This document shows, one piece after another, positions 17,209 to 25,230 of a DNA stretch of 64,000 bases (position 1 is the stretch's first letter; every line of letters starts with the position of its first letter). This DNA comes from Prevotella sp. (GTDB taxonomy: Bacteria; Bacteroidota; Bacteroidia; Bacteroidales; Bacteroidaceae), in assembly GCA_022773825.1 (NCBI GenBank), contig JALFOF010000084.1:1-64000 (forward strand), read 5' to 3'. The translations under genes and the position numbers were made by a program. The notes beneath the pieces were generated by a model, which did not search any database, was not told the DNA's origin, and saw nothing but the letters and a program-made list of their open reading frames with translations.

Positions 17209-17775
17209 TTATGATGCTAACCAGTTGTTTAGCATTGTTCTGCCTTCAGTTGTCAACACGCTTTCTGGGTGGAACTGTATTCCGTGTATGTCATACTCCT
17301 TGTGACGCAGTGCCATAATCTGTCCTTCGTCACTTTCAGCCGTTATCTCAAGACAGTCGGGGAGGTTCTCCTTGCTTACCACCCAAGAGTGGTAACGCCC
17401 CATGACGATGCGGCGTGGTAATCCGTTGAAGATGATGTCGTTGCCAAACTGCGTTCCTTCTGTTGCTACGCCGTGGAATACTGTTGACAGGTTCTCTAAT
17501 TTACCCCCGAAGAATTCTCCTATAGCCTGATGGCCAAGGCAAACGCCGAGTATTGGCTTCTTGCCAGCATAATGCTTTATCACGTCAAGCAGCAGCCCAG
17601 CCTCGGAAGGTATGCCCGGTCCGGGCGAGAGGATAATCTTGTCAAAGCCTTCCAGTTCCTCCATCGTGAACTGGTCGTTGCGGTAAACAGTGACTTCTGC
17701 GCCCAGTTCCTTTACGAGGTGACTAAGGTTGTAGGTGAAGGAGTCATAGTTATCTATTATTACTATATGTTTCAT
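17209..17775 (-). CDS. trpG: anthranilate synthase component II (glutamine amidotransferase)
   Basis: DNYDSFTYNL, LSPGPGIPSEAG, GVCLGHQAIGE, GIQFHPESV. Confidence 0.93.
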   Translation of the reverse strand: MKHIVIIDNYDSFTYNLSHLVKELGAEVTVYRNDQFTMEELEGFDKIILSPGPGIPSEAGLLLDVIKHYAGKKPILGVCLGHQAIGEFFGGKLENLSTVFHGVATEGTQFGNDIIFNGLPRRIVMGRYHSWVVSKENLPDCLEITAESDEGQIMALRHKEYDIHGIQFHPESVLTTEGRTMLNNWLAS

Positions 17776-17796
17776 TGTGTTTGTTAGCTAATGTTA

Positions 17797-19221
17797 TTAC
17801 ATGTTCTCTGCCATAAGAATAGCTCTGCGCAGTGCTCCGAGCTTGTTGTTCACTTCCTGCAATTCATATTCTTCATCGCTTTTTGCCACGATGCCTCCAC
17901 CAGCTTGGAACCACAGTTCGCCGTTGCGGCTCACGAATGTGCGTATCGTGATAGCTTGATTTAGCGTGCGGTTAAAGCCAATGAAACCGATACATCCGCC
18001 GTATGCTCCACGGTTGTGTGGCTCATATTCGGATATCAGTTGCATGGCACGTACCTTTGGAGCTCCTGATAGGGTGCCGGCAGGGAAGGTGTCGATGAAC
18101 GCCTTTATGGGGTCTGCTCCTTTGTCGAGCTTTCCGCTGACGCGGCTTACAAGGTGTATGACGTGTGAATAATACTGCATATCCTTGTAGAAATCCACCT
18201 TTACATTGTGACAATTCCGTGACAAGTCGTTGCGTGCAAGGTCAACCAGCATCACGTGCTCCGCATTCTCCTTGGCATCGTTACGTAGGTATTCCGCGTT
18301 CCTGCGGTCTTGCTCCGCGTTGCCAGTGCGTTTTGTTGTTCCTGCAATGGGGTCTATATATGCAAAGTATTCCCCATTGTCGTTTATTGTTATGCGGTAA
18401 TGCGTCTCTGGTGACGAGCCGAATATGCGGAATCCACCGAAGTCGAAGTAGAACAGGTATGGTGAGGGGTTTATGCTACGCAGAGCGCGATAGAGTTTGA
18501 AGTCGTCCCCCTCATACTGTTGTACAAATCGGCGTGACAACACAATCTGGAACACATCGCCACGCAGGCAGTGCTTAATGCCCTTGCGTATGTTTGCTTT
18601 GTGCTCCTCGTCTGTCAGTGGCGAGGTGGTGTCGCCGATGGGGTGGAAACTGTATGGCTGCACGTTGGCTTTGTTCATTCTTACCATCAGCTTCTCTATT
18701 TGTTCCGTGCCGTTAGCAGTCGTGTCTCCTTCTTCCGTGAGTGTTATAATAATCATTTTATTGTTGAAATGGTCGAACACTATCACGTCGCGGAAGAAGA
18801 TATAGAGCATATCCGGAGCGTCATTCTTTGCCATTGTAGTGTCTTTCACCGCTATATCCTCAAAATATCTTACGGCATTGAAGGCGGTGTAGCCATACAG
18901 TCCGCAGTATTCCGCGCAGTCACCGGTGATGGCGAAACGGTTTATGAAGTCATTGATGGCATTGTCTGAGCGGTAGTCGTGGTTTACGGCGTGGCGCACC
19001 GTTGTGCCATCGGGGTAGGAGCAGACGGCCTCGCCGTGGCTGATGCTGACAGATGCCACGGGGTTTAGTCCTATGAAAGACCGCGAGTTGTCTTTCTCGT
19101 GATAGTCAGAGCTCTCCATCAGCGCAGACTGCGGATAGATGTCCCTAAGACGCATATATACGCTCACAGGCGTATAGAGGTCCGCAAGGATAGTCTTGGT
19201 TGTTGTTTTGTATCTGAACAT
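17797..19221 (-). CDS. trpE: anthranilate synthase component I
   Basis: Chorismate-binding motifs: DPIAGTTKRTGN, FPAGTLSGAPKVRAM, GCIGFIGFN. Confidence 0.93.
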   Translation of the reverse strand: MFRYKTTTKTILADLYTPVSVYMRLRDIYPQSALMESSDYHEKDNSRSFIGLNPVASVSISHGEAVCSYPDGTTVRHAVNHDYRSDNAINDFINRFAITGDCAEYCGLYGYTAFNAVRYFEDIAVKDTTMAKNDAPDMLYIFFRDVIVFDHFNNKMIIITLTEEGDTTANGTEQIEKLMVRMNKANVQPYSFHPIGDTTSPLTDEEHKANIRKGIKHCLRGDVFQIVLSRRFVQQYEGDDFKLYRALRSINPSPYLFYFDFGGFRIFGSSPETHYRITINDNGEYFAYIDPIAGTTKRTGNAEQDRRNAEYLRNDAKENAEHVMLVDLARNDLSRNCHNVKVDFYKDMQYYSHVIHLVSRVSGKLDKGADPIKAFIDTFPAGTLSGAPKVRAMQLISEYEPHNRGAYGGCIGFIGFNRTLNQAITIRTFVSRNGELWFQAGGGIVAKSDEEYELQEVNNKLGALRRAILMAENM

Positions 19222-19293
19222 TTGTGTTTTTTTTTTTGTTGTTTGGTTGAGGGCTTTTCTCGGGCTGACGCCCGAGACACAGGGGCGGGGGGA

Positions 19294-19422
19294 TTGGTTG
19301 TTTGGTGGTTTGGTGGTTTAGTGGTTTGGTGGTTTAGTGGTTTGGTGGTTTGGTGGTTTGGTCGCTTGGTCGCCTATTGCATCCAACTAAACCACTAAAC
19401 CACCAAATCACTAAACAACTAA
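19294..19422. repeat. GGTTTGGTGGTTTAGT hairpin repeat
   Basis: Left arm of reiterated GGTTTGGTGGTTTAGTGGTTT, right arm CAACTAAACCACTAAACCACCAAATCACTAAACAACT, in the trpE-trpB gap. Confidence 0.85.
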
Positions 19423-19424
19423 AA

Positions 19425-20606
19425 TCACATATTCGCAAGATAGGTATCGAGGTCTTTGTCGCCGCGGCCAGAGACTGTCAGCACCACTACGTCTTCCTTC
19501 TTGAACTGTGGTGCGACCTTTGGCAGCAGTGCGAGGGCATGGGCTGACTCCAGTGCCGGTATGATACCCTCAAGTCGTGTCAGCTCAAAAGCGGCGCGCA
19601 GAGCCTCGTCGTCATTGGCAGGTAGCACCTGCGCGCGTCCCGTATCATAGAGGTTGCAGTGTATAGGTCCGGTGCCGGGGTAGTCAAGTCCTGCGGATAT
19701 AGAATAAGGTTCTATAATCTGCCCATCCTCTGTCTGCATCAACTTTATTCGAGAGCCGTGCAATATGCCCGTTGTGCCCACCTGCATGGAAGCAGCGGTC
19801 TTGTCTGTTTCCACGCCCATGCCTCCAGCTTCGCCGAGGATAATCTTCACCCGCTCATCGTTGATGTAGTGGTATATCGTACCTGCGGCGTTGGAGCCAC
19901 CGCCCACGCATGCCATGAGGTAGTCGGGGTAGTCGCGTCCAATCTTCTCTTCCAACTGCCATTTTATCTCTTCTGATATAACACTCTGTAGCCGTGCCAC
20001 AAGGTCAGGGTAGGGATGTGGTCCTACCGTACTGCCTATGATGTAGAAGGTGTCGGCAGGATGACTGCACCAGTCGCGTATAGCCTCGTTAGTGCCGTCT
20101 TTGAGCGTCATGTTTCCGCTCTCCACTGGGTGCACCGTGGCTCCCAGCATCTTCATCCTCTCCACGTTGACGTGTTGTCGCTGCACGTCCAGCGCACCCA
20201 TATACACCGTGCATGGCATATCCATCAGTGCGCATACCGTGGCGGTGGCAACGCCATGCTGTCCTGCACCTGTTTCGGCAATGATGCGTTTCTTGCCCAT
20301 CTTCTTGGCAAGGAGAATCTGTCCCAACGCATTGTTTATCTTGTGTGCCCCCGTGTGGTTAAGGTCTTCACGCTTCAGGTAGAGCTGACAGCCGTATTTC
20401 TCCGACATACGCTTTGCGAAGTAGAGTGGAGAGGGGCGGCCCACGTAGTCTTTCAGCAGGGCGTGAAACTCTGTCTTGAACTCTTCGCTCTCAAGGATGG
20501 GGCGGTAAGCCTTTTTGAGGTCCTCCACCGTCTTGTATAATATTTCCGGTATATAAGCTCCGCCGTAGTTTCCGTAGAAGCCGTCTTCATTGACATCGTA
20601 GTTCAT
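19425..20606 (-). CDS. trpB: tryptophan synthase beta chain
   Basis: [41 protein letters not shown]; start ATG 20606. Confidence 0.95.
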
Positions 20607-20668
20607 GTTTGTTGATATTTTTTGTTTTCTTACACTTGGTCTCGTTAATGTTTTTATCCTTTCCAATC

Positions 20669-20753
20669 GCAATAGCTATGCTTTAGCATTGTAATAGCTA
20701 TGCTTTAGCATTGTAATCGCTACGCTTTAGCATTGTAATCGCTATGCTTTTAC
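20669..20753. repeat. 22-bp-period array B (4 direct units)
   Basis: GCAATAGCTATGCTTTAGC-ATT-GTAATAGCTATGCTTTAGC-ATT-GTAATCGCTACGCTTTAGC-ATT-GTAATCGCTATGCTTTTAC; starts 20669/20691/20713/20735. Confidence 0.97.
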
Positions 20754-20892
20754 TTCAGGTATGGTGGTTGTCGGTTTTGGGGCTTTGGTCGCTTGGGATA
20801 ATCATGAGACTCCTCACTCTGTCTTACCACCTCGCTTGCAAAGAGCTAACGACCTGCAACCTAACACCTATAACCTAAACCTTTATCCCTTT

Positions 20893-21669
20893 TCACTTCC
20901 CCAGCGCGTCATACAGTTTGTCTATTGCCAACTCTGCGTCGCCGTTGGTTTCCGCCAGCAGTTGCACGAATTTACTGCCAATTATAGCCCCTGCGGCGTT
21001 TTGCTGCGAAGACTCCAGCGTCTGTTTGTTGCTGATGCCGAAGCCTATCATGCGCGGGTTACGCAGGTTCATGGCATTGATGCGTTGGAAATACTCCTGT
21101 TTCGCCTCGTCAAACGATTTTTGCGCCCCTGTGGTGCTGGCGGAACTTACCATATAGATGAAACCGTCCGTATGCTCGTCAATGAACCTTATGCGCTCTT
21201 CTGACGTCTCTGGTGTGATGAGCATGATGAAGCGTAAGTCGTATTTGTCGGCAATGGGCTTCAGTTCCAGGTAGTCTTTGAAAGGCAGGTCGGGTATTAT
21301 GGCTCCGCTGACCCCACATTCCACGCACGACTTGCAGAAATTTTCCACGCCATACTGTAAGATGACGTTGAGATATCCCATAAGTATCAGCGGAATACGC
21401 ACCTCGTCTTTGATGGCTTTCAGTTGCTCGAAGATTTTGCGAAGTGATGTCCCGTTGCGTAATGACTGCGTGGCTGCCTGCTGTATCACAGGGCCGTCAG
21501 CCATGGGGTCAGAGAAAGGCACTCCCACTTCTATCATGTCTATCCCCCTTCTTTGTAGGGTCTTGATAACGTTTCCTGTGCACTCCAGAGTAGGATGTCC
21601 GGCGCAGAAGTATAGCGACAGCAGTTTCCTGTCCTTATTGTCTGCAAAAAGTTTGTTTATCTTGTTCAT
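20893..21669 (-). CDS. trpA: tryptophan synthase alpha chain
   Basis: [35 protein letters not shown]. Confidence 0.95.
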
Positions 21670-21682
21670 TGTTATAGTTTGT

Positions 21683-22372
21683 TTAATCCTTGATTTGGTG
21701 TATGAAAGTCCTCAGTCTCTCTGTGTCTTTCAAGGCAGGAGCCGTCTCAAACCTTGAGTTTATGTCTATGCCGATGCACCTCGGGTGGTTGAAGACTTTT
21801 ATGCGTTCCGCGTCCTCTGGTCCTATGCCCCCGGAAAGCAGGAAGGGTGTATCGCCATCGTAACCGTTTAGCACCGACCAGTCGAACTGCTTGCCTGACC
21901 CTCCCATGCTTTCGCACTTAGTGTCGAAGAGGAACAGGTCAACGTGCCCGGCGTATTCACGCCATCGTTTCACGTCGTCCGCCTCGCGTATGCTCAGAGC
22001 CTTGATAATCCTTACGTTGGGCAGGATGTCGGGCACGAGTGTTCTTCGAAGGTTGTCTATGTAGATGGTGCTCTCGTTACCGTGCAGTTGTATGTAGTCA
22101 AGGCGGTAGTTGTAGGCGCAGGTCACCACAGTCTGTGGCATCTCGTTCACGAAGACGCCCACGAGTGCAGGCTGCTTCTGGTTCGTTTCAGCTGGCGTAC
22201 CGTCGGTGTCCAGCTGACATGGCAGGTTGGGCATTGTCCCTGCGTTAACATTAATGGTACCGACATATCTGGGACTTTTGGGCCAGAAGATAAGTCCCAT
22301 GTAGTCAATGCCGAGTTCCTTTACTGCGTGTATGTTCTCCGGGTCACGCATTCCGCATACTTTTATCTGCAT
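21683..22372 (-). CDS. trpF: phosphoribosylanthranilate isomerase
   Basis: [33 protein letters not shown]. Confidence 0.92.
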
Positions 22373-22411
22373 ATTGAAGTGTGTTTACGGTGGTAATTTA
22401 TAGTCCCCACC

Positions 22412-23200
22412 TTATATCTTTCTTATAAACTCCGCGAGCGTAGCCCCTGGGTCGGCAGTTTTCATGAAGTTCTCGCCTATCAGGAAACCGTTGAAGCCAG
22501 CCAAGCGAAGCTCACGCACGGTGTCGGGGTTGCTTATTCCGCTTTCACTAACCTTGCACGCACCCTTTGGCAGCAGCTCCGCCAGCCGGAAAGAGTTTTC
22601 CACCTTCGTGATGAAAGTGCCGAGGTTACGGTTGTTTATGCCGTACATGTCTGGGGAAAGGGCTGCGTATTCCAGTTCCGTCTCGCTGTGCATCTCCAGC
22701 AGTACCTCCATGCCGAGAGCGTGGGCTTTGTTTATTAGCGTGTCGCACTTCGTCTTGCTTAGGCAGGCTGCGATGAGCAGTACCGCTGACGCGCCGTACA
22801 GGCGGGCTTGGAGCAGCTGGTATTCATCGATTACGAAGTTCTTGTACAGCACAGGTGCCGTCACGCCTGACTGTCGCGCAGTGGTGATGAAACTGTCTTT
22901 GCCGCCGAAGTAACGGCTGTCGGTGAGGATGCTCAACGCTGCCGCACCGTTGTCTTGGTAGGCTTTGGGGATAAGGTCGGCCTTGCCGTCTTCTTTTATC
23001 CACCCTTTTGAGGGCGATTTGCGTTTGAACTCGGCTATGATGCCAGTGTCGCTACCCATCAGAGCCGCGCGCATAGACGGTATATTCGTAGCGGGTAGGG
23101 CCTCCACCTCTTTGACGAGCAAGTCCATTGGCTTGGCAGCCTTGAAGTCTCGCAACTCGCCGCGCTTGTGTTCTACTATTTCTGCAAGGATGTCTTTCAT
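22412..23200 (-). CDS. trpC: indole-3-glycerol phosphate synthase
   Basis: IIAEFKRKSPSKGWI, ILTDSRYFGG, GINNRNLGTF, SESGISNPDT. Confidence 0.95.
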   Translation of the reverse strand: MKDILAEIVEHKRGELRDFKAAKPMDLLVKEVEALPATNIPSMRAALMGSDTGIIAEFKRKSPSKGWIKEDGKADLIPKAYQDNGAAALSILTDSRYFGGKDSFITTARQSGVTAPVLYKNFVIDEYQLLQARLYGASAVLLIAACLSKTKCDTLINKAHALGMEVLLEMHSETELEYAALSPDMYGINNRNLGTFITKVENSFRLAELLPKGACKVSESGISNPDTVRELRLAGFNGFLIGENFMKTADPGATLAEFIRKI

Positions 23201-24192
23201 GAGTTTACCTCCACATATTTCTTCAGAGCTTGGTATGCCCTGCCGCTTTCAATAGACTCGCGCGCTATGGCTATGCACTCCGCAATGTCCTTCCCGCCCT
23301 CGTAAACCTGTATGGCAAAGGCTGCGTTGGCTATTACCACATTCTTCTGGGCGGTGGTTGACTTGTTCTCCAGCACGTTGTCGAATATCTGCATGGCCTC
23401 CTCTTTGGTGTCTCCACCGCGTAACTCGCTCGCCTGTGCCACTGGCAGACCGATGTCAGAGGGTGAGAAGATACGCTCGTAGTTGTTTGTTGTTACCTTG
23501 AAGTTGCCTGTAAGAGAAATCTCATCGTAACCGTCTATGGAGTTTTCTATGCTGTAATCAACACCCAATTTCTGATAGACACTATTGTAAAGGCGCATTT
23601 GGTCGAGTGTCGCTACGCCCAGCAACTGGCACTTTGGCTGTGAGGGGTTGACGATGGGGCCGAGCAGATTGAAGATAGTGGGGAAGGAGATGTTCTTCCT
23701 TATCGGCGTCACGAACTTCATAGCTCGTGCGAAGAGCGGGGCGTGGAGATACACAAAATTGCTTTCGTTGATGCTACGGTTGAGCTGGTCGATATCGTTG
23801 GTGAATTTCACACCGTGCATCTCTATCACATTGGAAGCTCCTGATACGGATGTAGCCGCATAATTGCCATGTTTTGCCACTTTGTAGCCAGCCCCAGCCA
23901 CGACGAAGCATGAGCAGGTGGATATGTTAAACGTATTCTTCTGGTCACCGCCAGTGCCTACGATGTCAATGTAGCGCGGTGCGTCGAGTATGGCGGGGAC
24001 ACCTGTTGCGAGTATGCCGTCGCGGAAGCCAAGGAGCTCGTCAACGGTTATTCCGCGCATCTGCAACCCCGTCAGCAAAGCGGCAATCTGCTCTGCGGGA
24101 TATTTCCCTTCTGTGATACCGATGAGAATGTCAAGCATCTCGTGTCGTGTAAGCTTTTCGTGATTAAGCATTTTTGAAAGCAACTGTTTCAT
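23197..24192 (-). CDS. trpD: anthranilate phosphoribosyltransferase
   Basis: DIVGTGGDQKNTFNIST, KHGNYAATSVSGASNVIE, NLLGPIVNPSQP. Confidence 0.95.
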   Translation of the reverse strand: MKQLLSKMLNHEKLTRHEMLDILIGITEGKYPAEQIAALLTGLQMRGITVDELLGFRDGILATGVPAILDAPRYIDIVGTGGDQKNTFNISTCSCFVVAGAGYKVAKHGNYAATSVSGASNVIEMHGVKFTNDIDQLNRSINESNFVYLHAPLFARAMKFVTPIRKNISFPTIFNLLGPIVNPSQPKCQLLGVATLDQMRLYNSVYQKLGVDYSIENSIDGYDEISLTGNFKVTTNNYERIFSPSDIGLPVAQASELRGGDTKEEAMQIFDNVLENKSTTAQKNVVIANAAFAIQVYEGGKDIAECIAIARESIESGRAYQALKKYVEVNS

Positions 24193-24259
24193 GTTTCTTC
24201 TTATTTGTTATTGTTTGGTTGTTTGTTTGTCTTCTCGTTGGGAGGAGATGTTATGTGGA

Positions 24260-24299
24260 TAAAAAGAAAGAGGCCTGTCGCGATTAGCAACAGACCTCT
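24260..24299 (-). terminator. trp leader terminator (attenuator) hairpin
   Basis: Minus strand AGAGGTCTGT-TGCTAATCGCG-ACAGGCCTCT (one G-U) followed by TTTCTTTTT, between the leader peptide ORF and trpD. Confidence 0.8.
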
Positions 24300-24355
24300 C
24301 TGTAAGGTGTATGTATTCTTCTTTTATACGTTCCTGCACCTATGGGGTCAACGCC

Positions 24356-24415
24356 TCACGACTTTGTAAATCTTGAGTTGCGCCACCACCAATATGTGCT
24401 AAATGTAAAGGACAT
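24356..24415 (-). CDS. trp operon leader peptide MSFTFSTYWWWRNSRFTKS
   Basis: 19-codon ORF with three consecutive TGG codons (24391-24383), upstream of the terminator hairpin and downstream of a TAATTTTG promoter; not in the ORF track because of its length. Confidence 0.88.
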   Translation of the reverse strand: MSFTFSTYWWWRNSRFTKS

Positions 24416-24460
24416 ATTCTTTATTGCTTTATAAGGCTTGATGTTTCAAACCTCTGGGTG

Positions 24461-24492
24461 CAAAATTACAAATAATCATTCAATCACGCAAA
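24461..24492 (-). promoter_or_regulatory. Bacteroidota-type promoter for the trp operon
   Basis: Minus strand TTTG (24492-24489), 20-nt spacer, TAATTTTG (24468-24461). Confidence 0.65.
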
Positions 24493-24508
24493 CTTTTTAC
24501 GCATTTTT

Positions 24509-24539
24509 TTTGCAGGCACGGCTTTTTATTGTAATTTTG
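24509..24539 (+). promoter_or_regulatory. Bacteroidota-type promoter for the 24574 gene
   Basis: TTTG 24509-24512, 19-nt spacer, TAATTTTG 24532-24539. Confidence 0.65.
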
Positions 24540-24573: not shown

Positions 24574-25230
24574 ATGAAAAAACTACTTTTATTCGCATGT
24601 CTTCTGGCTATGCCACTGGTTGCGGACGCTAAGAAAAATAATGCCACATCAACTATCAGGCCAGTATATACCAATGAATGTTATGACGCTAAACTACGGA
24701 AGAAGGCCCGGAAATGGATGAAGAAAGGTGAGTGGAGGCAGGGATTTACTGCCGCGGACCCACACGAAACGGTCAATGCAGTGGACTTCTACCTGCAATA
24801 TCAGCGTAATCCCGAACAGTGGAAAAAGTTGTTTGCCTATCTCGCCAAGACGGATTTGCTGGCATTGCCCAAAGGCAAGCATAAGATACCTGACAGTGAT
24901 CTCACGATAAGCGTGGAGGATTCGGAGAATGGACCGTTAGAGAAAAGAAACAGTGAGAGCCATTATCACGGCATAGATTTTCAGTATTGTGTCAAGGGCG
25001 TGGAGCGGTTTGGCATAATAGACCATGTCACTTCAACTCCGAAAAGCAAATACAAGCCTGATGTGATACATTATAACTATGCCAAAGAGCGTGCGCGCTT
25101 TTATGATTCTACGCCCGACAAGTTCTTTATCTTCTTCCCCGGAGACTGGCATATAGCCAAAGTGAATAACGACACGCAAGACCAAAATATCCGTGTATGC
25201 GTCATAAAAGTAAGGTGGATAGAGGAATGA
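24574..25230 (+). CDS. YhcH/YjgK/YiaL family protein, secreted
   Basis: Signal peptide MKKLLLFACLLAMPLVADA; ESHYHGIDFQYCVKGVERFG, FFIFFPGDWHIAKV typical of the DUF386 cupin family. Confidence 0.85.
   Translation: MKKLLLFACLLAMPLVADAKKNNATSTIRPVYTNECYDAKLRKKARKWMKKGEWRQGFTAADPHETVNAVDFYLQYQRNPEQWKKLFAYLAKTDLLALPKGKHKIPDSDLTISVEDSENGPLEKRNSESHYHGIDFQYCVKGVERFGIIDHVTSTPKSKYKPDVIHYNYAKERARFYDSTPDKFFIFFPGDWHIAKVNNDTQDQNIRVCVIKVRWIEE

Follow-up and report, generated by a model that had tools for sequence, protein, structure and literature searches.

The window analysed here, a stretch of 64,000 nucleotides from a Prevotella genome, carries on its minus strand an element that is very probably a ribosome-mediated transcription attenuator of the operon trpDCFABEG, homologous to the Bacteroid-trp RNA (RF01692). 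As far as sequence can test them, all structural requirements of ribosome-mediated trp attenuation are found in it. A first-pass annotation had already read the leader and its terminator as a trp attenuator, and this reading is supported by the Trp codons, the overlapping helices, the position of the stop codon on segment 2 and the trp genes downstream. The promoter, leader frame, hairpin and following trpD were also confirmed letter for letter as that annotation had described them.

Parts of the leader, the operon and the family

A Bacteroidota-type promoter, TTTG-N20-TAATTTTG, was found by pattern match at 24461-24492 (-), and the pattern TTTG-N18-22-TANNTTTG has 8 matches in the window against 0.75 expected. 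Among 54 homologues, in which a script located the terminator, segment 2 and the Trp codons, 51 have TAnnTTTG upstream of the leader. The leader peptide frame MSFTFSTYWWWRNSRFTKS, 19 codons read from the sequence at 24356-24415 (-) and matched by homologous leaders in relatives, opens with ATG at 24415 and closes with a TGA at 24358-24356 that overlaps segment 2. Its putative regulatory codons TGG TGG TGG (Trp-Trp-Trp) lie at 24383-24391 (-); the 54 homologues, for whose selection TGGTGG was required, all have TGGTGG or a longer run. The run TGGTGGTGG alone is unremarkable (1 match, where chance gives 0.54 per window), and it was dropped as evidence by itself. An intrinsic terminator, identified by folding and covariation at 24261-24301 (-), consists of a 15-bp stem at 24301-24267 with a loop of 5 and a U-rich tail, CTTTTTAT, and segment 2 starts 61 nt from it. 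The attenuator region folds with z = -5.4, far outside the range of shuffled sequences, and WWW together with the RNA words CTCAAGA...GTCGTGAG is retained in more than 20 relatives. It is thus the combination of parts and their conservation, seen in the fold z, the kept words and the terminator covariation, that goes beyond chance. No convincing second copy of the element was found in the window's own genome, only an antisense echo of the same terminator. A second TAnnTTTG-type promoter lies at 24509-24539 (+) and points in the opposite direction, toward a 218-aa ORF at 24574-25230.

Directly 3' of the attenuator, the operon runs in the order trpD-C-F-A-B-E-G down to 17209 (-). Its first structural gene, trpD (23197-24192), matches TIGR01245 with 307 bits. 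The next, trpC (22412-23200), is an ORF overlapping the end of trpD and is assigned by gene order, which agrees with that of the relatives identified by tblastn; trpF (21683-22372) and trpA (20893-21669) are likewise assigned by ORF and gene order. Of the remaining genes, all on the minus strand as well, trpB (19425-20672; TIGR00263, 579 bits) probably has its true start further inside the annotated ORF, trpE (17797-19221) has TIGR00564 trpE as its best NCBIfam model with 423 bits, under the cut-off of 517.7, and trpG (17209-17775) matches TIGR00566 with 202 bits, above the cut-off. Between trpB and trpE, at 19222-19424, lies a GGTTTGTGGTTGG-like simple repeat, which appears as GGLVVWWFGGLVVWWF in a plus-strand ORF at 19099-19398.

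At the default cut-off, Rfam reported only a tRNA in the window. With a relaxed threshold the element matches RF01692 over its full length (1-131) with 34.7 bits and E 0.02, below the gathering score of 49 bits, and it is therefore missed by default annotation. However, two relatives of the same genus score 63.4 and 59.1 bits (G005 and G150), and same-genus copies ahead of trpD-first operons (L095 and L098, the former aligned together with the window copy) exceed the cut-off, thus the window copy is a diverged homologue and not an outsider. It shares with Bacteroid-trp RNA the phylum Bacteroidota, the Trp-codon leader, the 1:2 hairpin core ACAUAUUGGUGG...GUCGURAG and the position before trp genes, but it precedes trpD in the order DCFABEG. 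The RF01692 model draws the 1:2 hairpin and ends at the terminator 5' arm, with neither terminator nor antiterminator drawn.

The trpL leader of Escherichia coli, whose letters we confirmed against E. coli genomes, has consecutive Trp codons, the alternatives 1:2, 2:3 and 3:4, a terminator and the trp operon downstream. While its working logic is the same, the window element differs in its TAnnTTTG promoter, its three Trp codons and an antiterminator that reaches into the terminator 3' arm, and the enterobacterial Trp leader RF00513 does not match 24150-24520 even at E values as high as 5. Of the earlier description as classic trp attenuation, the ribosome-mediated logic thus stands and the enterobacterial family does not: on sequence grounds the correct family is Bacteroid-trp, which is Bacteroidota-specific and known since 2010, and the window copy is not an outlying enterobacterial element.

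The Bacteroid-trp family was described computationally (Weinberg et al. 2010, PMC2864571) and is conserved ahead of the trp operon of Flavobacterium psychrophilum (PMC6414381). The transcriptome of that species gave strong clues for leader-peptide attenuation before amino-acid operons, with structured elements lacking Rfam matches before pheA and hisG (PMC9723704); it belongs to the same phylum and a different class, and its leaders are likened to ours by description, not by sequence. In the literature collection searched, no work on this mechanism in Prevotella was found.

Three alternative helices and the ribosome

Helix comparisons took 44-54 of the homologous sequences. Segment 1, GCACAUAUUGGUGGUGGCGCAACUCAAGAUU at 24369-24399 (-), forms the 5' side of the 1:2 hairpin and segment 2, AGUCGUGAGGCGUUGACCCCAUAGGUGC at 24336-24363 (-), its 3' side, both placed by folding and pair counts; the pairing runs as GCAC-AUAU-UGG-U-GGUGGCGC-AA-CUCA with segment 2. 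In this hairpin 74% of cells are paired against 32-49% in slid controls, and two-sided cells number 41 against 20 in shuffled sequences. The terminator 3:4 is paired in 98.5% of cells, with both bases changed in 8 of the 12 consensus pairs, which none of 500 shuffles reaches.

Across homologues segment 2 reads GUCGURAG followed by a variable stretch, and its part at 24362-24346 doubles as the 5' side of the antiterminator. The partner, GGUCUGUUGCUAAUCGCGAC at 24277-24296 (-), is supported by duplex energy, a swap test and pair counts, and it covers the terminator 5' arm, the loop and the inner 3' arm. Pairing of segment 2 with only the 5' arm or only the 3' arm of the terminator was rejected, as either leaves the conserved GUCGURAG unexplained. 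Pairing that does not stop at the terminator loop but goes on into the inner 3' arm, GUCGUG with CGCGAC, accounts for GUCGURAG in the sequences compared. The duplex with segment 2 has -20.4 kcal/mol in the window, and its energy ranges from -16.7 to -23.5 kcal/mol among the 21 species listed. Partners from one and the same species pair better than partners exchanged between species, with 0 of 5000 permutations as good (51 sequences, relatedness uncorrected), and the variable part within Prevotella-type sequences gave 32 of 5000 (relatedness again uncorrected). Two-sided cells number 39 against 21 in shuffled sequences; in the column-wise alignment the conserved part is paired in 88.5% and the variable part in 45-58% of cells.

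Alignment column 57 is G or A, with C or U as its partner in segment 1 and C or U in the terminator arm, so that the change is balanced in each helix, CG becoming UA in 1:2 and GC becoming AU in the antiterminator. This pattern is what the alignment should hold for a base common to two alternative helices, although the double compensation may stem from few evolutionary events. Run on the full alignment, RNAalifold returned no more than the terminator and three core pairs owing to the variable spacers, and the named helices were therefore counted instead. Taken together, the comparison supports three mutually exclusive helices, the weakest being the variable part of 2:3.

Folding of the nascent RNA as far as the terminator loop, given as mean expected pairs over 54 sequences, suggested how the ribosome would set the choice. 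With no ribosome, 1:2 has 23.4 pairs and the antiterminator 0.4. The competing antiterminator envisaged in the first-pass annotation does form when the ribosome is stalled on the Trp codons (with bases masked up to 15 nt beyond the beginning of the Trp run), where it reaches 9.0 pairs; shuffling segment 2 still leaves 6.1, so the advantage is modest. With the ribosome at the stop codon, which lies -8 to +7 nt from segment 2 in 52 of 54 sequences, the antiterminator has 4.7 pairs, about half of the stalled state. Once the full terminator is present it is still the fold of lowest energy, also when the leader carries a stalled ribosome; the decision must therefore fall during transcription, and from these folds we infer that the antiterminator would win kinetically.

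The mechanism we propose is as follows. Transcription would start at the TAnnTTTG promoter and a ribosome would translate the 19-codon leader, whose frame is open and holds conserved Trp codons. When charged tRNA-Trp is plentiful, the ribosome would get to the TGA inside segment 2, and segment 2, being covered, would be unable to pair, so that the terminator 3:4 forms and transcription stops before trpD. When charged tRNA-Trp is scarce, the ribosome would stall on TGG TGG TGG, open the outer 1:2 hairpin and release segment 2, which would pair with the emerging terminator 5' arm and extend through the loop into the inner 3' arm (GUCGUG:CGCGAC), giving read-through. With no ribosome, 1:2 would form and the terminator win. 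The parts, the three mutually exclusive helices and their conservation are established at the level of sequence comparison, and the switch putatively follows the charging of tRNA-Trp.

It might be argued that the leader peptide is itself the tryptophan sensor and stalls in the exit tunnel, as TnaC does, in place of sensing by codon starvation, since the residues after WWW look conserved in one clade (R-N/D-S-R). However, it is the RNA that is conserved and not the protein: a one-base difference reframes CUCA (WWWRNSRF versus WWWRTQDF), L005, L006 and L008 hold CUCA in another frame, Bacteroides-type leaders read WWR.LQL, and peptide ends vary in length while the RNA stays. The conservation after WWW is thus imposed by the RNA, which disfavours peptide-sensing arrest, and we regard it as highly unlikely. 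A structured, conserved leader with a terminator would also be expected of an RNA that binds tryptophan or a protein, such as a riboswitch or a TRAP-like target, with the short ORF incidental; but throughout the homologues an open frame from ATG to stop holds consecutive Trp codons and ends on segment 2, no Rfam riboswitch matched at gathering score, and no array of (G/U)AG repeats was seen on reading the leader by eye, so that this explanation has very little probability left.

A trans role has been reported for the trp leader of Sinorhizobium (PMC7298713), where the roles described belong to a trp leader peptide, and the terminator here could by analogy be constitutive, with a short leader RNA or peptide acting in trans and cis attenuation secondary. 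The conserved antiterminator pairing would then have no reason without cis switching, and we hold this possibility to be extremely improbable. The leader may nevertheless act in trans in addition to attenuation in cis.

Distribution of the element and its trpB2 copies

The window's trpD shares 91-92% identity with that of the two nearest Prevotella MAG records. The sample of relatives comprised 80 trpD loci, 29 of them trpD-first with enough upstream sequence, and the earlier expectation that the WWW leader and hairpin would be conserved in relatives is borne out, as the leader lies shortly upstream of trpD in 27 of these 29; it is absent before trpD in the other two (L007 and L010). The order in the window is trpDCFABEG (17209-24192) against trpBEGDCFA in many relatives, and in trpB-E-G-D-C-F-A loci no element precedes trpD, whereas in the trpB-first genomes checked it lies ahead of trpB. 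In G087 (L147) the operon is split into trpBEG and trpDCFA with one copy of the element each. The leader thus goes with whichever gene heads the transcription unit, as expected of an attenuator.

A new search, its model built from 44 sequences, was run on 151 genomes of the family. The element was found in 106 of them with this model, compared with 43 by RF01692, all of which are included in the 106; that the new model had members of this family in its training set is part of the reason why the counts favour it. It is present in 81 of 91 genomes with trpD and in 25 of 60 without (Fisher p = 1e-9, relatedness uncorrected); the other 10 genomes with trpD have no match with the rebuilt model. Some genomes lacking a trpD match are incomplete, and absence of trpD is no proof of auxotrophy.

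In several of the 25 element-positive genomes without a trpD match, the element lies directly before trpB2. This arrangement was seen at 12 loci (L152-L154, L172-L175, L178, L181, L183, L188 and L189), for example at L152:1295-1419, L153:6180-6310 and L154:6690-6824; across the 12 loci the leaders carry WWW, or WW in L152, plus a terminator. Three of the proteins were identified as TrpB2 by TIGR01415/NF009057 and the rest by tblastn. These loci suggest tryptophan-controlled indole salvage via trpB2. In a cross-feeding assay, a TrpB2-like enzyme of Bacteroides thetaiotaomicron is reported to have helped a trpA mutant of E. coli, probably through indole from neighbours (PMC11535334), a result in keeping with a salvage gene under tryptophan control. 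In the window's own genome trpB2 is present, with no such leader before it. We would give about even odds to a broader proposal, namely that the Bacteroidales trp attenuator is a mobile module whose antiterminator invades the terminator 3' arm via the loop, fixing GUCGURAG in two helices, and whose copies control stand-alone trpB2, so that in bacteria without a detected trpD a shortage of tryptophan would induce indole salvage.

Leaders for other amino acids were also observed. On another contig of the window's own genome (C45, locus L169), a Phe/Tyr-rich leader, MNNSYASFFYFYFYFAENCEAGSCV, precedes a pheA-aminotransferase locus, with the leader at 213-290 and a GC-rich terminator at about 320-365 of the reverse complement, and its AAGCGGGA is able to pair with the terminator UCCCGC. 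The pheA leaders of L163, L165 and L166 read MRELFNTYFYFFFYFYF..., MKTFATYFFFFFFYFYF... and similar, and the pheA-leader loci of relatives had no Rfam match at gathering score. One relative (G003) has a possible Ile/Val/Leu leader, MINLAVLLHIIIIRVVVKTTMR, with a terminator before ilvD-ilvB (L158:1970-2119); in the window's own genome no leader was seen before hisG or ilvD.

Implications for Bacteroidota

By comparative evidence, the window element is a genuine conserved trp attenuator within an already catalogued Bacteroidota leader family. Ribosome-mediated attenuation requires coupled transcription and translation, and translation initiation in Bacteroidota proceeds largely without Shine-Dalgarno sites; the distribution reported here supports classic ribosome-mediated attenuation as widespread in this phylum. 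More than half of the copies in the family escape the public RNA model (43 versus 106 of 151 genomes). The antiterminator is now defined and open to mutation, and the trpB2 copies offer a testable link from tryptophan starvation to indole salvage in gut bacteria.
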